The notes under the pieces were generated by a model. It was not told the origin of the DNA, made no database searches, and worked only from the letters and a program-made list of their open reading frames with translations. From Nitrospiraceae bacterium (GTDB taxonomy: Bacteria; Nitrospirota; Nitrospiria; Nitrospirales; Nitrospiraceae), in NCBI GenBank assembly GCA_919902505.1, contig CAKKRE010000008.1, forward strand, positions 1 to 45,673: a DNA stretch of 45,673 bases. Direction: 5' to 3'. Position 1 is the stretch's first letter, and each line of letters opens with the position of its first letter. Made by a program: the position numbers and the translations under genes. Below are positions 870 through 8,741 of the stretch, piece after piece.

Positions 870-1781
870 TTACTCCTGGATTGCCCTCGCCCGTTTTTGT
901 AAGTAGGCATTCCGCACCGCCGCATAGAGATCGAGTGTCGCCTCTTCCACTCCCTGAAATGTTTCCAGATTGAGCGCCCGGTCGTTGGTGACTTCTGCAA
1001 CACGTCTTCCAAGCTGCGCAATGGACGTCGTCGTCCGGTTCTGGTGCGCAATCGCCGAGGGCACCCCCTTGACCTCGATCAGCGGTAAGACCAGCCAATT
1101 GATCGGATCGAGCAAAATATCCGCCGCATATCCGAATCCGTCGCGGAGTGTGAGCGGCGGCATGAGCGGAAGGACTAGATAGGGCCCCGGTGAGACACCG
1201 TAGAAACCAAGCGTCTGACCGGTGTCTTCTTCCGGCGTCTGCAAATTCATGCGTGTGGCAACGTCGAGGAAACCGGCGACGCCGAATGTCGAGTTCACGA
1301 GAAATCGGCCCATCTCCACGCCGGCCCCGTTGAGCTTTCCTTGAAAGACGTTGTTCGCAAAGCGCGGTACGAAGCGAAGATTGTGGAAAAAGTTGCTGAC
1401 GCCGACTTGTGCCGCGCCGGGCATGACAAAATTGTAGCCTTGGGCGACCGGTTTCAGCACGAACCGGTCCATCTTGCGGTTCAATTCGAACATCGCGACG
1501 TTGAAAGGCTCCCACGGGTCGTATTCATCGTCCGTCGCTTTTTCCGATGTGGCAAAGGGATCGAAAAACTCATCGTGGTCCGATGCTGCACCCGCCGACG
1601 AGTCTGCTTTTTTGATCGGAGCAGGTCGCGTCTCCGAGACGGCGGACCGGTTCGCTTGATCACTGGGTTGAAGAGCCGCAGGAATCGTGCTCCAGCCTGT
1701 GATCCCCAGGCTGATCGCTACAACAAGGGAGAGCTCCCATCTTGCGACCAGCCACCCACGAACGCCATGCACGATCCTCAT
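870..1781 (-). CDS. mlaA: MlaA/VacJ family protein (phospholipid retrograde transport)
   Basis: 303 aa. It matches MlaA (VacJ), the outer-membrane component that removes misplaced phospholipid from the outer leaflet and hands it to the Mla pathway. Visible signatures are the DPWEPFN start of the domain (about residue 90), FVPRFANNVFQGK, and the PYLVLPLMPP segment. An N-terminal hydrophobic stretch serves as signal or anchor, but there is no lipobox cysteine, unlike E. coli MlaA. The ATG at 1781 overlaps the stop of the upstream DUF2934 gene as ATGA, so the two are probably translationally coupled. No other mla genes are in the window. Confidence 0.92.
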   Translation of the reverse strand: MRIVHGVRGWLVARWELSLVVAISLGITGWSTIPAALQPSDQANRSAVSETRPAPIKKADSSAGAASDHDEFFDPFATSEKATDDEYDPWEPFNVAMFELNRKMDRFVLKPVAQGYNFVMPGAAQVGVSNFFHNLRFVPRFANNVFQGKLNGAGVEMGRFLVNSTFGVAGFLDVATRMNLQTPEEDTGQTLGFYGVSPGPYLVLPLMPPLTLRDGFGYAADILLDPINWLVLPLIEVKGVPSAIAHQNRTTTSIAQLGRRVAEVTNDRALNLETFQGVEEATLDLYAAVRNAYLQKRARAIQE

Positions 1782-1972
1782 CGCTTGGATCGTCCTTCGA
1801 CGCGCTCGAGCACCCGCCGTTCGGCCTCGGCCCAATGTTCGAGATCGTGGCCGTGCTCGTAGCCGCACAGGCAGTAGAGTTCGTACGCCAACTTCTGAAT
1901 CTCCTCCTCCAAAGGAGCCCGATTCGCTTGTACAGGCTGCACCGCCGCAGATTTCTTATGGGTGGCTGCCAT
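1778..1972 (-). CDS. DUF2934 small protein
   Basis: 64 aa. The core (LEEEIQKLAYELYCLCGYEH then LEHWAEAERRVLE) is the DUF2934 signature, a short helical domain of unknown function common in soil and environmental bacteria. The start is fixed by a strong AGGGAGGT Shine-Dalgarno seven bases before the ATG. Longer in-frame starts lack one. Its TGA overlaps the ATG of mlaA by the ATGA arrangement, placing it first in a two-gene unit. Lysine/alanine-rich N-terminus, no signal peptide. Any role in the envelope is only implied by the neighbour. Confidence 0.85.
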   Translation of the reverse strand: MAATHKKSAAVQPVQANRAPLEEEIQKLAYELYCLCGYEHGHDLEHWAEAERRVLERVEGRSKR

Positions 1973-2260
1973 TGTCTGACCTCCCTTCATGAAGTGTGAG
2001 CCCATTGACTGGGCCATGGTTTGTTCGAGCGTGCCTCAGGCTATCACTCGTGCATCTTTCACTCTGTTACCTGGTTCACACTTTGAAGGTTTTTTGATGT
2101 GATGGACGGTCTTTTCAGGAGATTCTGTTCCAGAGCCCGAAGCTGAGGGTGTCTTACGGCCTCGGAAGCGAAGTAGGACCTGGCGCCTGTCGGCGATGCC
2201 GGGTAGGCACAGAAGGCTGCTGGTCAGAGATGCAGCTCGGTGAGGGAGAGTCCGTCGTCG

Positions 2261-3034
2261 TCAGCGCAACGGTCCGCCGCAGGAATCGCATCGGGAGACG
2301 AGGCTTTCAACTGCAACAGCAGGTTGGAGGGACGGAACCGGCACAGGAGCTTCCGCCGGCATCTCGCCGCGGAGCAGGCGAACCCACCGTGCGGTGGGAT
2401 AACGGAGCACCAGCTTGGGAATGAGCAGCATCATGCCCACCATCGCCAGACCGGAGAGGATCAGCAGCCATGCGCCCGATACCACCTGGCTGCCCGCATA
2501 GGTCAGCGCCAGGGTCGGCGGAATCATGCCGACAAAGGTGACTGCGGCGAATGTCCGGAGGGACATGTTCGTCAGGCCGGCGCCGTAGCTGATGATATCG
2601 AACGAAAAAAGCGGAACCAGCCTGGCTAGAAATACAAAGATTGCCAAATGGCGATCCGAGCAACGTTCACAAAAGGCGACGTTGGTACGCAGGAGCCGGG
2701 TCAGAACATCCCGGCCCAGCGCCCGGCCGATGAGAAAACTCGCAATCGCTCCGATTTCTGCGCCGATAACCGCATAGGCCGTTCCCAACATCGGGCCGAA
2801 GGTGGCGCCGGCCGCGATGTCTAGCGGTAAGCTCGGGATCGGACTGATCACCACGGCAGCGGCCATGAGGGCGATGAAGACGATCGGTCCGAACGGGCCA
2901 GCCTCTCTCAGCCAGTCGGCAACCAGATGCGGCTGGAGGATTTTGGGGAGATCGAACCAGAAGGCCGTGGCCAAGGCGGCGAATGTCAGGGCGGTAAGGG
3001 CTCCGAGCTTTATCCAGCGGGTGTTGATGTTCAT
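2261..3034 (-). CDS. TVP38/TMEM64 family (DedA-like, VTT domain) membrane protein
   Basis: 257 aa inner-membrane protein. An N-terminal TM is followed by the VTT/SNARE-associated domain, with helices around GPIVFIALMAAAVVISPIPS, the glycine-rich GAEIGAIASFLIGRALGR segment, and FLARLVPLFSFDIISYGAG. This family is linked to lipid scrambling and membrane homeostasis; the exact substrate here is not known. The C-terminal tail has CDSCGG, a possible metal-binding pair. It starts 18 bp after the stop of the PagL-like gene and is probably its operon partner. Confidence 0.88.
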   Translation of the reverse strand: MNINTRWIKLGALTALTFAALATAFWFDLPKILQPHLVADWLREAGPFGPIVFIALMAAAVVISPIPSLPLDIAAGATFGPMLGTAYAVIGAEIGAIASFLIGRALGRDVLTRLLRTNVAFCERCSDRHLAIFVFLARLVPLFSFDIISYGAGLTNMSLRTFAAVTFVGMIPPTLALTYAGSQVVSGAWLLILSGLAMVGMMLLIPKLVLRYPTARWVRLLRGEMPAEAPVPVPSLQPAVAVESLVSRCDSCGGPLR

Positions 3035-3052
3035 GTTCTTGCGCCTGTGGTC

Positions 3053-3700
3053 TCAGAATACTCCGGGTGTAAAGAATGAGATGCCGATGTACGGTAGCAC
3101 TCCATTGATTCCGGTATTTCTGTCGCCGAGATTCGAGTTGGAAATGTGATGTAGCCGCACGCCCATTAACCATGTCATCCGGTCCGTCACAAAATACTGC
3201 AGGCCGGGACCGGTCTCCAGTACGAACTCGAACTGGGTACTTTGTTCAGGAATCCGCGGTGCCAGATTAGTCCAGACCATCCCGGCGCCCACGTCCCAGA
3301 AAGGCATCCACCGTCCGAACGAGAGAACATTGTATTTCAGGACGAACGACCCTCCGACCGCCTCGGCGGCAAACGGTTTGGTAAACCGCGCAACCACCGG
3401 CTCAATCATCAGTTCGACATTGCCCTGCCACCAGCTCCTTCCCAAGGGCTCAGTCAAGATCATGCCCGCGCGCGGCATCACAAAGACGGCGCTCCTGTTC
3501 GCCGACTCAGCGGCACCGATCGCCGTGGTACCTTGCGCGTATCCCACCGCCCCGCCGAGCTCGAAGACGCCTTTCCGCATGACCTCGCGAGCGTCAAACG
3601 ACGATCTTTCCCCCGCGACCCCGGGTGAAGTCCACAGCACAATGCCGAGGAACATGGCAACGAGGAGCCCGGCCTGCGTAAGGCGGTGCTGCTTGCTCAT
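3053..3700 (-). CDS. pagL: Acyloxyacyl hydrolase / lipid A 3-O-deacylase (PagL-type) barrel
   Basis: 215 aa with an N-terminal signal peptide (hydrophobic stretch ending about TSPGVAG) followed by an amphipathic beta-strand pattern. The segment RLHHISNSN (about 182-190) carries the His and Ser of the PagL active site, in the position expected near the C-terminal strand, and the protein ends with an aromatic residue (F) as outer-membrane barrels do. It probably trims the 3-O acyl chain of lipid A in the outer membrane. The ATG at 3700 is preferred because the signal peptide begins there. First gene of a pair with the TVP38-like gene. Confidence 0.82.
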   Translation of the reverse strand: MSKQHRLTQAGLLVAMFLGIVLWTSPGVAGERSSFDAREVMRKGVFELGGAVGYAQGTTAIGAAESANRSAVFVMPRAGMILTEPLGRSWWQGNVELMIEPVVARFTKPFAAEAVGGSFVLKYNVLSFGRWMPFWDVGAGMVWTNLAPRIPEQSTQFEFVLETGPGLQYFVTDRMTWLMGVRLHHISNSNLGDRNTGINGVLPYIGISFFTPGVF

Positions 3701-3997
3701 TGTGGCCTCTCGTTGCCGGTCCTTTCGTGTCTCCGTCCTCCCCATGATGCCTCACACTGTCCTTTCTATCCGGCGATAGATGATGACAGGGTATCGCGCA
3801 GGTGCCCCGAAGATCTGTGACGGTTCTTACAAACGGCGGACAATGTTTGAGGAACAGAGGGTTGAGAGAGAACCATTCGCGGACCTATTCGGCGATCGTC
3901 GCTTGCGGGGCATCCCCCATTGGGACGACCTCGAAGGTCTTGGTCGGAGTGCGATGGGAGCAGCCCAGCTTCGGAAGGAGGACTTGGTGCTTGCCGG

Positions 3998-4537
3998 TCA
4001 GCGATCCGGCACGCCGTCCTGCCTGTGGTGTGACGCACCAGGAGCGCCACAGCCCATGACATGCATGACGGTGGGAAACAGGCGTGCGATGGAGATGGCT
4101 TGGGCCAGCTCAATGATGCCCACCTCGCCGTAGCGACGCATGATGGCTTCACGCCAATGGTCGTCTTCACCGCTTCCCCTCGCGACGGTTTCGGCAAAGA
4201 AATAGACTTCCGCCAGCTCCGGCGGCAACGCGCAGGGAGATTCGCCGAGCACTGCATGGAGGAGCGGAAGTCTGACTCCGGCATGTTGTGCGAGCCGTAT
4301 CTCCATCTGAAGGCAGGTTCCGCCGTGCTCGTGCCGAGCCGTCACGATGCGGGCCAGGTGATAGGCCTCCGGGGGCAGAGCGCGCCGAAACCTCGTAAGC
4401 GGCATGATCTTGATGAACGTCAAAAAATGGGCAGGCGAGACACGAAGCATCTGGCGTAGATAGGACAGTGGGCTGCCTTGGTCATGTTCGATGGCACGCA
4501 GGCGCTTCTCACCAAGCCAACGGGTCACGGAGATCAT
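3998..4537 (-). CDS. AhpD/carboxymuconolactone decarboxylase-like protein with a single Cys
   Basis: 179 aa, all-helical. The segment LARIVTARHEHGGTCLQMEIRLAQHAGV corresponds to the AhpD/CMD catalytic helix that normally reads like NCxYC...H. Here only one cysteine (GTC) remains. A second candidate cysteine lies near the C-terminus (VMGCGAPG). It may be a peroxidase-like or carbon-substrate enzyme, but the missing CxxC argues against classical AhpD chemistry. The ATG overlaps the DUF3179 stop as ATGA. It is the last gene of the four-gene chain starting at 6439. Confidence 0.8.
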   Translation of the reverse strand: MISVTRWLGEKRLRAIEHDQGSPLSYLRQMLRVSPAHFLTFIKIMPLTRFRRALPPEAYHLARIVTARHEHGGTCLQMEIRLAQHAGVRLPLLHAVLGESPCALPPELAEVYFFAETVARGSGEDDHWREAIMRRYGEVGIIELAQAISIARLFPTVMHVMGCGAPGASHHRQDGVPDR

Positions 4538-5562
4538 GGGGAGTTTCCCTTCGGATGCGTAAATACGTGCGTGTCCGGATGAAACGCGTACCAGGCAAAC
4601 CAGAAAGCCATGATGGAGGGGAGCGGTGTGCCGTCGGCGTCGATGACGGATGCGCTGCGGGATTGCTGGTTGAACCGTACCGTGATGGCCCGGCCACCGA
4701 CTTGATCGCCGACGGGCGTGCCGGCCTTCTTGAGATCTGAAAAGGGGTAGGCTTTGGCGATCCCGTCGATCTCCACCCCGACGACCCACTCCTTGGGATG
4801 GTAGCTTGGATCGAAGTGCGTGGTGTCGAACATCAAGTCCCGACGCTCGGCATAACCCAGATACGGATCGTCATCGTAGTTTCGGAAGGAACCGGTTCTT
4901 GTAGACAGGACGAGTGTGGCGGGATGGGCGGCTCGCCATTCCGACCAGGTCGTATGTTCCAGAAACATGGGCGCCAGCCGCTCTCCCGTCAACGGCCCGG
5001 CCACCGCATGCATGCCGATTTGCGACCAGAGGCTTTCCGTCTGATGATCGTACATGAGCAGATCGCTCTGATAGAGGAGGCCGGAGACGCCGAATGTATG
5101 CGGGTTCCCTCGCACATTCGCATCGAAAGCAATCCCGGTTCCGCAGAGCGGACAGTAGGTGACCACAACGGGCTTGCCGCCGACCACATCATTCACGATT
5201 TCGTGCCAGTTGAGAATCTTGATCGGATAGGCCTTGGCGTCGGATTCCCGCTCGAGACCCAGGACTCGGTCGGTGGCTTGGAGGAACGTGGCATCTTCGG
5301 CAGAGATGAATCGTGGGGTTAAGATGGCGGGGATTCCATCCTTGCCCGGTCCTCCGTCTACGATCTGATCCAGTGGCACGTTGTGGCGGGTTAGGTCGAA
5401 CGTTGTCGTCGGATGTTTCCCTAGTCCTAGCCAGGCCGCAAGAATCAGGATTGCGCCGATTGCAAGGAACAGCGTCCAACGCCAGCGCAGAGAGGTGAGC
5501 TGCCGATAGAACGTTTGGCGGGAAACCGTAGCGGGAAAGAGGTCTGGTTGAAGCGCGCTCAT
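4534..5562 (-). CDS. DUF3179 domain-containing membrane-anchored protein
   Basis: 342 aa. A signal-anchor helix (about residues 30-48) is followed by a large extracytoplasmic DUF3179 domain. Diagnostic segments are IVDGGPGKDGIPAIL, AYPIKILNWHEIVND and VVTYCPLCGTGIAF. The CxxC in YCPLC is a family feature and may bind metal or form a disulfide. Function of the family is not established. It overlaps the genes on both sides by ATGA, so it is the third gene of a tightly coupled operon between two AhpD-like genes. Confidence 0.9.
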   Translation of the reverse strand: MSALQPDLFPATVSRQTFYRQLTSLRWRWTLFLAIGAILILAAWLGLGKHPTTTFDLTRHNVPLDQIVDGGPGKDGIPAILTPRFISAEDATFLQATDRVLGLERESDAKAYPIKILNWHEIVNDVVGGKPVVVTYCPLCGTGIAFDANVRGNPHTFGVSGLLYQSDLLMYDHQTESLWSQIGMHAVAGPLTGERLAPMFLEHTTWSEWRAAHPATLVLSTRTGSFRNYDDDPYLGYAERRDLMFDTTHFDPSYHPKEWVVGVEIDGIAKAYPFSDLKKAGTPVGDQVGGRAITVRFNQQSRSASVIDADGTPLPSIMAFWFAWYAFHPDTHVFTHPKGNSP

Positions 5563-6188
5563 CGGAGGAACCAGTAGATGCCCACAGCACAGGAGAGTAG
5601 GGCGATCGCGATGATCATGCCCCCAATCCCGGCGGCCGCGCCCTGGCTCTCTTCTCTTGGGATTGCAGTATGGCTGACTCGCGTCGCTTCATCACCCAGA
5701 TATTCTTCACGCAAATGATCGTTCACGAACGTGACGGCGTCCGGGACATCAGCCGGCATGATTCCGGACAGGTATCGATCGAAAACCTTGAAAAAACGAA
5801 TGGTCGACCAGATTTTGTCGTAGGTGGCTTGATCGAGCGCGTTCAGACCGAATGCGCCAGGCATGGCCGCGATGAAGAAGGTTCCGGCCTCGTTCGTCGA
5901 GACCGCTAAGGCGATGACACGCTTGGTTCTCCGATCCAGACATTCCAGGTTCATCTCGTCTTTGAAGAGCGTCCACGTCGTGTCTAGATACGACGGCCGA
6001 TGGCGCATGCCGTCGAACAATTCAGGCACAAACGAGATGCCGAATGTCCCGGTGATGTCCTGAAAGAGGGTCTCTAGGTTGGTATCCCGGGTGATGTCAG
6101 GATCAGCCGGCGATGCTTCATCGTTTTCCGTCGATGGGTGAGCAGGACGAACTGCGCTGCGTTGGGCAACAGAAGACCGATCCCTCAT
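5559..6188 (-). CDS. AhpD-like protein lacking the catalytic CxxC, with C-terminal TM anchor
   Basis: 209 aa. The central helical region (DRRTKRVIALAVSTNEAG, then FIAAMPGAFGLNAL) aligns by pattern with AhpD/CMD proteins, but where the CxxC should be it has AGTFFIA, with no cysteine. A hydrophobic segment near the end (GGMIIAIALLSCAVGIYWFLR) is a single transmembrane anchor, so the soluble part would be membrane-tethered. The N-terminal 25 residues are low-complexity. Joined by ATGA overlaps to the thioredoxin-like gene upstream and DUF3179 downstream. Catalysis is doubtful; a structural or partner role is possible. Confidence 0.78.
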   Translation of the reverse strand: MRDRSSVAQRSAVRPAHPSTENDEASPADPDITRDTNLETLFQDITGTFGISFVPELFDGMRHRPSYLDTTWTLFKDEMNLECLDRRTKRVIALAVSTNEAGTFFIAAMPGAFGLNALDQATYDKIWSTIRFFKVFDRYLSGIMPADVPDAVTFVNDHLREEYLGDEATRVSHTAIPREESQGAAAGIGGMIIAIALLSCAVGIYWFLR

Positions 6189-6439
6189 CGCTCCCCCCTG
6201 TCCCAGGCGCGCAACCGGTCCACCAGCCAGTCCTTCTTCGGGACCCCTGTGGCGAGGACGCGTCCGTCCAGCAAGAAGGCTGGAAAGACTATGACTCCGG
6301 AGAGGTCCGGATCACCAGCTACTGCAGTTTTGACGGTGATGTCCCAATGCGGGAGTTCGTGCCGGATCTCCTCCGCCAGACTTCGAGCCGAGTGCTCGGA
6401 CAGGCACCCTCCATGAACGAGAATGTCGAGCCGTGCCAT
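6185..6439 (-). CDS. Small thioredoxin-fold protein with a single Cys
   Basis: 84 aa. The beta-alpha-beta pattern LDILVHGGCLSEHS followed by a helix, then VIVFPAFLLDGRV, matches a minimal thioredoxin fold. The FPA corresponds to the cis-proline loop. The N-terminal redox site has one cysteine (GGCLSE) rather than CxxC, so a monothiol or non-redox role is likely. It is the first gene of the operon and ends with an ATGA overlap into the AhpD-like gene. The Shine-Dalgarno is weak. A short palindrome lies about 25 bp upstream. Confidence 0.72.
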   Translation of the reverse strand: MARLDILVHGGCLSEHSARSLAEEIRHELPHWDITVKTAVAGDPDLSGVIVFPAFLLDGRVLATGVPKKDWLVDRLRAWDRGER

Positions 6440-6460
6440 GGGGCCATTCTAAAGGGAGCG

Positions 6461-6480
6461 CCCACAGCAATCTGTGAGGG
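6461..6480. promoter_or_regulatory. Palindrome upstream of the thioredoxin-like operon
   Basis: CCCACAG-CAAT-CTGTGAGGG has 5-bp perfect arms (CACAG/CTGTG) extended by partial symmetry. It lies 22-41 bp before the first ATG of the four-gene operon, where an operator or a leader hairpin would sit. No promoter consensus was identified nearby. Confidence 0.28.
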
Positions 6481-6803
6481 GGATTACAGTTTCCATAAGC
6501 ACCAGCGTGCCTCATGAATCCGGTCACGGGAGGCGCGGGTCCACGCTCAAGTGAAAGAAGTTCCTGGGCGTGTCCGTCTGGACGACCGGTGATGGAGACT
6601 ATGAATCGTCAGGGGGCAGAAGGTTGTGTGGATAGAGGATCGACAGTGGCCGAAGGCCGGGCCGGCAGGAAGGAACGGACAGGATTGGGAGGCCAGGTTG
6701 TTACGAGCAATGTATCGGGGTCGGATCAACCGGTTGCTCGCCGACAGGTCGTTGTTACGCACCTGTCAGGTCTGCCCGGTGTAGCCATTTAGAGTAGGGC
6801 ATA

Positions 6804-6830
6804 GCGGGGCGACCGCAATGGCCGCCCCGC
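6804..6830 (-). terminator. GC-rich hairpin after the truncated-haemoglobin gene
   Basis: GCGGGGCG and CGCCCCGC form a perfect 8-bp stem with an 11-nt loop, 27-53 bp beyond the stop of the haemoglobin lipoprotein gene on the minus strand. No U-run follows on that strand, so intrinsic termination is uncertain. Confidence 0.4.
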
Positions 6831-6856
6831 CCTGGTTCTGAAAAACACCGCATCGA

Positions 6857-7333
6857 TTACCGCATCGAAGCCATCGGCTTTTCGACGATGTCGCCCTTCA
6901 TCGGACCCAAGGCGCCGAGTAGTTCGTTCTTCTCCCGTTCGGGCACTTTAAACTTGTTCAAGGTGGCGACGAGATCTCCGACCAGCGCGTCGAAGTCGCT
7001 GCTGCTGACGCCCATACCGGCATGGGTGCTCTTCATGTCTCGCCCGGTATAGGTACAAGGCCCGCCTGACGCCTGACAGATTTGATCGACCAGCATGGAT
7101 TTCAGGCGCGGGATATTGGCGTTGGCGAACTTGCCGTTGATGCGGGTGTCGGCGGCCACGCGACCGACGAAGTCATCTACTACGGCGGTGATGGCCGTTT
7201 TGCCACCCAGCCGATCGTAGAGCGATTTTTCCGCCGTTGCGTTGCCGGTCGGACCTGAGCCGACCGTATTGCAGGCTGCGACCGTCAGCGCGAAGCCAAG
7301 GATCAAGGAAAGAGATGCCATTCGTTGCGACAT
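6857..7333 (-). CDS. Lipoprotein group I truncated haemoglobin
   Basis: 158 aa. A lipoprotein signal peptide ends in the lipobox LTVAAC (Cys 21), followed by a short linker and a group I truncated-globin domain: [20 protein letters not shown], then INGKF, then [10 protein letters not shown] with the probable proximal haem histidine. Trunc globins bind O2 or NO and are usually cytosolic. Here the domain would be exported and lipid-anchored. A strong AGGAGG precedes the ATG. Divergent from the ECF sigma gene, so the two may share control. The globin sequence is somewhat shortened at its C-terminus. Confidence 0.88.
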
Positions 7334-7554
7334 GGGAATACCTCCTGGTTATGGGTCAGTTTGTTGGGCCGGGTTTGCATCGATATCGACCGGCTCTCTG
7401 TCTCGAACTACGAAACGGAGCGGCAGTTGGATTTCCCGGGAATGAAAAAACTGCGTTGTGCCACGATCATTCCGGTGCTACAGTTTCGCCGAATCGGCGC
7501 GGGAGCGGGAATCTAATTCACCGGGTAGACTCGTAGATCTTGACGAGGATGCCC

Positions 7555-8160
7555 ATGATGCAATCACAGGCTGTGGCACAGGCACCTTCGATGCATGAGC
7601 AGGAATGGACGGGACTTCTCGCGCGCATTGCCGCCGGAGACCAGCCCGCGCTTGCGGAGTTCTATGATGCGAGCAGCGCCAAGGTATTCGGCTTGGCGAT
7701 GAAAATACTCGGGGAGCGCACGGCTGCCGAAGACGTGACGATGGATGTGTATACGCAAGTGTGGCGCCGGGCCTCGACCTACGACGCGGAGCGAGGCACG
7801 CCGGGGAGCTGGCTGATGACGCTGGCGAAGACCCGGGCCATCGACCGGTTCCGGAGCAGCTACCTGGAACGGGGGCGGCAAGTCCCCCTGGATCAAGTCG
7901 CGGAGTTATCGGGAGATGCGGACACGCCGGAGCAATACAGCGCGGGGCTTGAACGGCAGCGGTTGGTGCAGGAGGCCCTGGCGTGTCTCTCCACCGAGCA
8001 GCGCCAAGCGATTGCCTTGGCCTACTATTGGGGGTTGAGTCAGAGTGAAATCGCCGATCGCTTGAAACTGCCGTTGGGGACCGTGAAGACACGGATGAGA
8101 CTGGGTATGATCCGGTTGCGCGAAGTGCTGGCTCCACACGGGGAAGGGTTGCGGTCATGA
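7555..8160 (+). CDS. ECF-type RNA polymerase sigma factor
   Basis: 201 aa. Sigma region 2 (about residues 25-95, with AAEDVTMDVYTQVWRRA) and region 4 (CLSTEQRQAIALAYYWGLSQ then SEIADRLKLPLGTVKTRM) are clear. It belongs to the ECF group paired with cupin/ChrR-like or RskA-like anti-sigma factors. The start is chosen at the ATG pair 7555/7558 because GACGAGG lies just before it. An upstream TTG at 7540 is in frame but has no binding site. Its stop overlaps the anti-sigma ATG by ATGA, as usual for such pairs. Confidence 0.92.
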   Translation: MMQSQAVAQAPSMHEQEWTGLLARIAAGDQPALAEFYDASSAKVFGLAMKILGERTAAEDVTMDVYTQVWRRASTYDAERGTPGSWLMTLAKTRAIDRFRSSYLERGRQVPLDQVAELSGDADTPEQYSAGLERQRLVQEALACLSTEQRQAIALAYYWGLSQSEIADRLKLPLGTVKTRMRLGMIRLREVLAPHGEGLRS

Positions 8161-8741
8161 CCGATCCACGCCACAAAGACGAGCTGTCGGAGCTGGCGGT
8201 ACTCTACGCCCTGGGGGCTCTGGGTGACGATGAGCAGCGGCAATTCACGCAGTCCCTTGCGACGGCTCCTGCGGAAGTCCGGCAGCAGGTCGCAGCGTTT
8301 CAGGAGGTGGTGCAGGAGCTGGCGTTCAGCGGTCCCGCCATCTCGCCTCCGGCGTCGCTCAAGGCCACACTCATGGCGCGCATCGCGCAGGAGCCGCAGG
8401 AGCGACAGGCCGCCGGGGATTTCACCGTTGTTCGATCCGCGCAAGTGGCCTGGCGGGATTTGGGCCCGAGTGTGTCCATGAAAATGCTGTTCAACGATCC
8501 GGCCGGCGCGCGGGCCACGATGTTGCTGCGGCTCGCTCCGGGAGGAGAACTGGCGGCGCACCGCCACCGGCAGGTCGAAGAGTTCTACGTGTTGGAGGGG
8601 AGCTGCATCTGCGCCGGAGAATTGCTCCAGGCCGGGGACTACCACCGCGCCGAGGCCGGGAGCGTTCATCCCATTACGTCGAGCGAGCAGGGGTGCCTGG
8701 CCCTGGTGATGACCTCGACGCAGAACGAACCAGCCGGGTAG
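8157..8741 (+). CDS. ChrR-like cupin anti-sigma factor
   Basis: 194 aa. The N-terminal helical part (ELAVLYALGALGDDEQRQF and following, residues 8-60) resembles the anti-sigma domain of RskA/ChrR-type proteins but has no zinc-binding HxxxCxxC. Residues 95-190 are a cupin barrel: HRHRQVEEFYVLEG gives His135, His137 and Glu141/142, and a later His171 completes a metal site. Probably holds the adjacent sigma factor inactive until the cupin senses an oxidant or metabolite. Cytosolic, no membrane segment. Translationally coupled to the sigma gene by ATGA. Confidence 0.85.
   Translation: MTDPRHKDELSELAVLYALGALGDDEQRQFTQSLATAPAEVRQQVAAFQEVVQELAFSGPAISPPASLKATLMARIAQEPQERQAAGDFTVVRSAQVAWRDLGPSVSMKMLFNDPAGARATMLLRLAPGGELAAHRHRQVEEFYVLEGSCICAGELLQAGDYHRAEAGSVHPITSSEQGCLALVMTSTQNEPAG

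Follow-up and report, generated by a model that had tools for sequence, protein, structure and literature searches.

This report concerns four adjacent genes in a 45,673-nucleotide stretch of DNA from a Nitrospiraceae bacterium (positions 1 to 45,673 of contig CAKKRE010000008.1, GenBank assembly GCA_919902505.1), referred to here as the window. All four are open reading frames (ORFs) of the minus strand, and each shares four bases (ATGA) with the next, giving three overlaps in all. From 5′ to 3′, they encode an 84-residue protein that is thioredoxin-like by profile and has a single Cys (TrxL; 6185–6439), a 209-residue protein that is AhpD/carboxymuconolactone decarboxylase (CMD)-like by profile (AhpD1; 5559–6188), a 342-residue DUF3179 protein (4534–5562; PF11376, E 1.6e-91), and a 179-residue protein (AhpD2; 3998–4537) whose remote likeness to AhpD/CMD proteins rests on remote relatives. 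The start of AhpD2 is set at ATG 4537, backed by an alignment of relatives; the ORF listing begins at GTG 4789. An original prediction from the sequence of the window had described this overlapping chain, which is verified here, and had proposed that its redox-type members have lost their redox cysteines. Once the Cys counts are corrected, the observation holds and extends well beyond the window.

TrxL and AhpD1 stand together in 25 distinct cassettes, all in Nitrospira-type genomes; DUF3179 accompanies them in 22, and all four genes are present in 11. These figures come from 32 cassette-bearing sequences (the window and 31 loci, cited by L numbers; genomes are cited by G numbers), of which seven are repeats. 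The count for DUF3179 leaves out a locus with an internal deletion (L065) and two that meet contig ends (L088 and L089), and the count for AhpD2 excludes L079, where only a remnant of the gene is left. Thus, the gene order is present in relatives, but the idea that the four genes form one unit does not hold for most cassettes. Of the 11 four-gene cassettes, 10 retain the 4-base overlap between DUF3179 and AhpD2; the eleventh is L075, where the frame of DUF3179 is shifted. The other two overlaps are variable, with TrxL and AhpD1 separated by a gap in L018 and L067–L069. Extra genes, among them those for a TPR protein, a YjeF_N protein, and a 327-residue protein, lie between DUF3179 and the PagL or VTT gene (see below) in L066, L068, L069, and L070.

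Among 61 relatives searched, AhpD1 was found in 8 genomes and DUF3179 in 12. In a family sample of 37 genomes (G000–G036), which are related and do not amount to 37 independent cases, DUF3179 occurs in G000, G002, G015, G019, G025, and G030, and these six are also the genomes with an AhpD1 of the cassette type; G016 gives one further AhpD1 match in the family, but to a canonical CxxC protein located in a different setting. A phylum sample of 295 genomes yielded AhpD1 in 13 at E 1e-15 and DUF3179 in 23 at E 1e-20. In that sample, nine of the ten family genomes with a cassette AhpD1 have DUF3179 and the tenth keeps a remnant. When the genomes of 84,980 species were scanned by pattern, 17 loci were returned. 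All are labelled Nitrospira, Nitrospiraceae, or Nitrospirota except four loci of two "uncultured Nitrosospira" bins, and one of these bins (L077) has DNA in common with G002, which belongs to the same genus as the window. Two cassettes are found in Nitrospira moscoviensis. Beside one of them, L081 holds two large ORFs (1521–5384) that by eye resemble Tn7-type TniQ proteins, a possible sign of mobility. Separately, L012 (G025:C2) and L063 (G277) are 100% identical over 15,411 bases in genomes labelled as different genera. Either one genome is contaminated or the transfer was very recent; G025 may be the contaminated one.

In TrxL, the only Cys is Cys12, within HGGC-LSE (codon 6404–6406), as had been predicted. 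A profile of the cassette copies matches the thioredoxin fold of PDB 1fo5 (E 8.2e-7), and Pro53, which all 14 aligned sequences share, is at the cis-Pro place as judged by sequence position, geometry aside. The window protein is below the cut-off of Pfam Thioredoxin_3 (E 0.17 only) and, at 11.7 bits, far below the 92.75-bit cut-off of TIGR00411. All 25 cassettes carry the motif HxxC[LP]S, where the Cys is kept and no Cys follows three residues further on. The same holds outside the cassette, where the motif is HxGC[LI]S in eight of eight loci and the resolving Cys is likewise gone. In total, a CxxC active site is found in 0 of 33 TrxL copies, while the single Cys is kept in 33 of 33. In the genome of the window, a 90-residue thioredoxin that is related to TrxL retains CGAC (L201).

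The original prediction allowed AhpD1 no Cys at all, but two are present, Cys83 and Cys200, neither of which is at the active site. In an alignment, the NNCEYC..AH of its homologues L016 and L017 reads EAGTFF..AM. The first Cys is replaced by Gly102, the second by Phe105, and the His by Met109 (codons within 5862–5885). Both motif Cys residues and the His are gone in all 23 readable distinct cassette copies, a count that lacks L088 and L089, which end short of the site, and includes L065 and L080, whose sites were read individually. The place of the first Cys is occupied by Gly in 22 copies and by Glu in L078. The relatives found share the loss in both TrxL and AhpD1, which is therefore not peculiar to this genome. 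A profile made from 12 cassette copies of AhpD1 only nonetheless matches the AhpD-core protein PDB 2ouw (E 6.3e-14). Pfam gives no family match for AhpD1, either for the window copy or for L015, and assigns the canonical relatives L016 and L017 to CMD (E 1.2e-17 and 4e-21).

As a yardstick, among 30 CMD proteins that Pfam detects in related genomes, 29 retain CxxC; this figure covers 30 of the places found and is biased toward CxxC because only Pfam-detectable proteins enter it. Together with the recurrence of the gene order, this argues that the pattern is more than chance. The exception, L258 (1468–1794), is a CMD-family protein of G016 that lies outside the cassette and has a motif without Cys (HSEGGVHSH). 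In the same genome, the canonical CxxC relative L017 (G016:C271) adjoins a YjeF_N gene that is split over two ORFs and resembles the YjeF_N gene of some cassettes.

A transmembrane anchor had also been proposed for AhpD1. The window copy does have a hydrophobic segment near its C-terminus, beginning at residue 186 (mean Kyte–Doolittle (KD) value 2.29 over 19 residues, ~5577–5633). Of the 12 aligned copies, eight bear such a tail (maximum KD 2.3–3.2) and four do not (KD 1.1–1.4), so a putative anchor is seen in the window but not in every relative.

The assignment of 4534–5562 to DUF3179 is certain, with a full-length match to PF11376 of 307.2 bits over a cut-off of 27. The protein has only two Cys residues, Cys137 and Cys140, which form the predicted CxxC as CPLC (codons within 5143–5154), and it has the conserved NWHE as well. 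CPLC is kept in all 22 readable cassette copies. An output of CPLF for L067, L069, and L086 came from the pattern matching flanking read-through: L067 and L069 show CPLC when aligned, and L086 repeats L067. A hydrophobic segment starts at residue 30 and is present in 12 of 12 aligned sequences (1.9–2.5), after two to five basic residues; L078 enters this set as an ORF with an extended start. Under the positive-inside rule, basic residues flanking a membrane segment tend to stay in the cytoplasm. Because the N-terminal anchor is preceded by basic residues, the DUF3179 domain probably faces the periplasm; by the same rule, the AhpD1 domain would be cytoplasmic. No export signal is seen in TrxL, AhpD1, or AhpD2, as judged from their sequences.

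DUF3179 is tabled as a selenoprotein family with the motif UxxC/T in the available text of two papers (PMC9312934, PMC13188914). In a relative from another Nitrospirota lineage, L118 (G301; 5194–6141), a TGA lies exactly at the first Cys of CPLC (VSW*PLAF). This is as expected of a selenoprotein. Because of the listing and of this TGA, DUF3179 would act through its first Cys. The available text of open-licence papers that name the family gave no stated function for it.

A relation of DUF3179 to Rieske proteins was considered and is left unproven. A model of the protein, for which only 12 sequences were usable in AlphaFold (mean pLDDT 61.6), gave nothing better than E 0.13 with Foldseek against the PDB. 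In a second structure comparison (VIA-align 2), rows 1–9 are Rieske proteins with Z 3.8–4.7, and by eye the H-x16-C spacing from His120 to Cys137 is Rieske-motif-like. Nevertheless, hhalign of DUF3179 against 14 Rieske proteins, picked by motif and length from 30 loci, scored 10.3, within the range of 30 column shuffles (7.9–17.8), and a PDB profile search with DUF3179 found no Rieske protein. In addition, the residues covered by the structural match seem shifted relative to the motif, a judgement made from residue ranges and not from a residue alignment. The model also contains two similar strand-helix-strand runs (~99–147 and ~259–308), as if by internal duplication, with CPLC in the first half only.

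AhpD2 has three Cys residues (Cys75, Cys102, and Cys163), and not one as had been claimed; a single one, Cys75, is at the motif. The window protein reads GGTC there (Gly72 to Cys75); its relatives show CGTC, CGSC, or CGPC at this place. Over the 11 cassettes, the motif is CGTC in three (L012, L074, and L075), GGTC in three (window, L011, and L013), and CGTW in five (L014, L018, L064, L080, and L081). Hence, one Cys is lost in eight copies and at least one is kept in all 11. Remote relatives outside the cassette have CxxC in four of four cases (G265, CGSC; G078, CGPC; two Rhizobium plasmids, CGSC and CGPC). The suggestion that AhpD2 is disarmed is therefore apt for the eight copies and does not extend to the three with CGTC or to the outside relatives. 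Since each group lost a different Cys, and both are present in the outside relatives, the simplest account would be two or more independent losses, as judged from the motifs and not from a tree. The classical AhpD His is absent in the aligned AhpD2 copies and their relatives. Of the fold assignments, the likeness of AhpD2 to AhpD is the weakest and rests on the remote relatives. Against Pfam CMD (cut-off 23 bits), the window protein gives no match, L012 reaches 17.5 bits (E 0.0043), and L018 reaches 11.6 bits; the AhpD2 profile had no match in the PDB profile search, and hhalign found no signal between AhpD2 and AhpD1. An AlphaFold2 model of AhpD2 is helical and, with a mean pLDDT of 47.8, too poor for a structure search.

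Purifying selection was estimated from pairwise dN/dS by NG86; some sequences enter more than one pair, so the pairs do not count as independent. The values are 0.12–0.22 for DUF3179 (9 pairs), 0.18–0.38 for AhpD2 (11 pairs), 0.21–0.45 for AhpD1 (12 pairs), and 0.06–0.30 for TrxL (the 11 of 14 pairs with estimable dS). The AhpD1 values, all below 0.5, indicate that the gene is maintained. By these ratios, AhpD1 is under purifying selection that is weaker than that on DUF3179, and it is the least constrained of the four. A redox-inert AhpD1 is, on the aligned sequences, a shared and maintained trait.

On the 3′ side of the four genes, also on the minus strand, follow genes for a PagL-like outer-membrane protein (3053–3745; PF09411, E 1.4e-12), a VTT/TVP38-type membrane protein (2261–3034; PF09335, E 1.5e-27), and a small DUF2934 protein (1778–2017; PF11154, E 7.6e-10), in this order here and in many cassettes. 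The VTT/TVP38 protein has FCERC and a C-terminal CDSC, and both pairs are kept in the four relatives that were compared in full. Beyond them is a gene (1868–870) presumably for MlaA. In the window, as in some other Nitrospira, TrxL is preceded by a truncated haemoglobin gene of the minus strand (6857–7333; PF01152, E 1e-15), whose product is lipoprotein-like at its N-terminus by eye. Three plus-strand genes are presumably those of a Crp-type regulator (117–818), an ECF sigma factor (7540–8160), and an anti-sigma factor (8157–8741); these, like MlaA, are putative names given from the sequences. Seven proteins scanned with PADLOC gave no anti-phage defence match, and one IMG/VR scan with DUF3179 as query gave no viral relative. 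Promoter and terminator scans of the region were uninformative (0 sigma-70-like sites vs 1.1 expected; 3 terminator-like sites vs 2.5 expected).

The haemoglobin gene is upstream of the cassette in the window, L085, and L089, while in G002, G015, G019, and G025 the best haemoglobin match is on a different contig from the cassette; thus, the linkage is not general. It is also upstream of TrxL, directly or up to 1.6 kb off, in six of the eight loci without a cassette. The haemoglobin–TrxL pair (window 6185–7333; L194, L195, and L197–L200) marks a locus of variable content near ECF-type and Crp-type genes, with AhpD1, DUF3179, and AhpD2 as an optional block downstream of TrxL.

The best reading of these observations, to which a probability of about 40% is given, is that a dead AhpD1 scaffold and a one-cysteine TrxL serve a DUF3179 redox enzyme. 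The four genes would form the 5′ portion of an accessory operon that probably relates to stress and has to date been seen in Nitrospira-type genomes alone; a stress role is suggested by the haemoglobin and ECF-type neighbours only. DUF3179 would be a membrane-anchored, probably periplasmic redox enzyme acting through the CPLC pair, whose first Cys would be the counterpart of the selenocysteine of its selenoprotein relatives. AhpD1 would be a pseudoenzyme that keeps the AhpD scaffold without the motif Cys and His residues, probably has a docking or regulatory role, and in many copies may be held at the inner membrane by its C-terminal tail. TrxL, as a one-cysteine thioredoxin, would form mixed disulfides that it cannot resolve alone; its role would thus be that of a thiol switch or adaptor, with AhpD1 as a plausible docking site. 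AhpD2 would be a true AhpD-type enzyme that has turned into a one-cysteine form in some lineages.

Several results weigh against this reading. TrxL has a wider range than the other three genes, as it occurs at eight loci of seven genomes without AhpD1, DUF3179, or AhpD2, and the AhpD1 tail is missing from a third of the aligned copies. AhpD1 is the fastest-evolving member (67% identity between the window and L011, with 84–96% for the other three) and its dN/dS exceeds that of the other three in 10 of 12 pairs, which fits relaxed constraint too; it is tied in one pair and lower than AhpD2 in one (L018–L064). Some genes are broken: AhpD1 is frameshifted in G019, the DUF3179 of G308 has a stop, frames are shifted in the DUF3179 of L075 and at the AhpD1–DUF3179 junction of L080, and Nitrospira sp. 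CG24E keeps TrxL and AhpD1 with DUF3179 reduced to its two ends. Part of these broken or shifted frames may be assembly errors. Finally, DUF3179 and the other three proteins are maybe on opposite sides of the membrane. The membrane complex of the original prediction is possible but unproven, as TrxL also occurs alone, AhpD1 lacks its tail in some copies, and DUF3179 is probably periplasmic; nothing was found that points to the different chemistry proposed with it.

A tentative but substantial alternative is a loose accessory stress island. The genes would then stay together because they lie in a hotspot near haemoglobin and Crp-type genes, each protein would work independently, and the loss of Cys from AhpD1 and AhpD2 would reflect weak selection and drift. 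It agrees with the dN/dS rank of AhpD1, with the broken genes of G019, G308, CG24E, L075, and L080, and with the presence of AhpD2 in fewer than half of the cassettes, as well as with the variable content behind TrxL: where the cassette is absent, the downstream genes are a Crp-type gene alone in L197–L200, VTT in L194, and PagL-VTT-DUF2934-MlaA in L195. However, loose assembly does not readily explain why the order TrxL-AhpD1-DUF3179 is kept in 22 distinct cassettes or why AhpD1 and DUF3179 share the same six of 37 family genomes and, in the phylum sample, nine of ten with a remnant in the tenth. Drift, in turn, is at odds with dN/dS below 0.5 in 12 of 12 AhpD1 pairs and with the residues at the former motif, Gly102, Ala108, and Pro110, which are conserved in the 12 aligned AhpD1 copies.

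It is unlikely that TrxL and AhpD2 are instead catalysts that use their single Cys with an outside thiol, with AhpD1 as the only dead protein. The retention of the TrxL Cys in every copy and of at least one motif Cys in every AhpD2 agrees with such a role, and the Sesn-A domain of human Sestrin2 is an active alkylhydroperoxidase though its second Cys is Leu, according to the available text of PMC4674687. Yet the window AhpD2 keeps the second Cys of the pair where Sesn-A keeps the first, and the classical His is absent from AhpD2 and its relatives alike. Also improbable is a more elaborate form of the preferred reading, where TrxL, a tail-anchored AhpD1, and DUF3179 would act together across the inner membrane as a redox relay or sensor. 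In such a relay, DUF3179 would carry out periplasmic thiol chemistry or sensing, the dead AhpD1 would transmit or dock it on the cytoplasmic face, and TrxL would be the trapped output. By analogy, this would mirror in bacteria the way in which sestrins divide their labour. A new cysteine-free chemistry of AhpD1 on an AhpD-like fold, as in the weakly similar haloacid dehalogenases DehI, is very improbable, for although the AhpD1 profile also matches (R)-2-haloacid dehalogenases in the PDB (E 2.9e-6 to 6e-6), that alignment has a 7-residue gap spanning the place of the first Cys, and the former motif has no invariant acidic residue, His, or Cys but conserved Gly, Ala, and Pro.

On the preferred reading, a cluster of nitrite-oxidising Nitrospira looks partly made of catalytically dead or one-cysteine proteins, and DUF3179, a conserved family with selenoprotein members, gains a set of genetic partners. 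The parts belong to known families, while no published description of the arrangement was found in open-licence papers; for an operon of this kind in Nitrospira, the available parts of these papers gave no account, and they yielded no co-mention of "pseudoenzyme" and "AhpD". N. moscoviensis is cultivated, and its transcription has been reported (PMC6606698, available text), where the word thioredoxin is not used in the main text accessible. As this species has two cassettes, the idea is testable.

Each of the four proteins can be set beside a known system. TrxL is like the MJ0307-type small thioredoxins (PDB 1fo5, TIGR00411) in length, profile fold, and the Pro at the cis-Pro place, but its CxxC is cut down to C-L-S-x. 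AhpD1 aligns with the AhpD/CMD family (PF02627; PDB 2ouw) over ~105 residues, but unlike that family it has neither CxxC nor His, is unseen by Pfam, and bears a hydrophobic tail in most aligned copies. The window DUF3179 protein shares the full-length match and CPLC with its family, tabled among selenoproteins, but elsewhere in the phylum the family has other company: no TrxL is present at 14 inspected loci outside the cassette, and only one of these has a weak AhpD1-type match (E 3.6e-5), ~2.2 kb off on the other strand. This set is not exhaustive, as G045, G048, G067, G124, and G194 were left out and L111 and L120 are short contigs. For AhpD2, a parallel is offered by ECF41 sigma factors, which are linked to CMD genes (PMC3426412, available text). 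Both Rhizobium-plasmid relatives of AhpD2 are likewise followed by an annotated sigJ gene, which is probably of the ECF41 type. Nevertheless, all ECF41-linked CMDs described there contain CxxC, while 8 of 11 cassette AhpD2 copies are without it.

A functional precedent is human Sestrin2, where, in the available text of PMC4674687, Sesn-A works with one Cys and Sesn-C, without catalytic residues, inhibits mTORC1 and has a signalling role. Sestrins are used here as a functional analogy only, and not to imply family membership: the sestrin family of Pfam, PA26, gives weak matches under its cut-off for the canonical relatives L016 and L017 only, and AhpD1 itself is without a Pfam match. Both systems contain AhpD-like folds that have a single Cys and others that lack the catalytic residues altogether, and in Sestrin2 the fold that lacks them has become regulatory, but Sestrin2 is eukaryotic and has both domains in one chain. 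A maintained set of redox-dead or one-cysteine AhpD and thioredoxin relatives in nitrite oxidisers would parallel the sestrins in bacteria.

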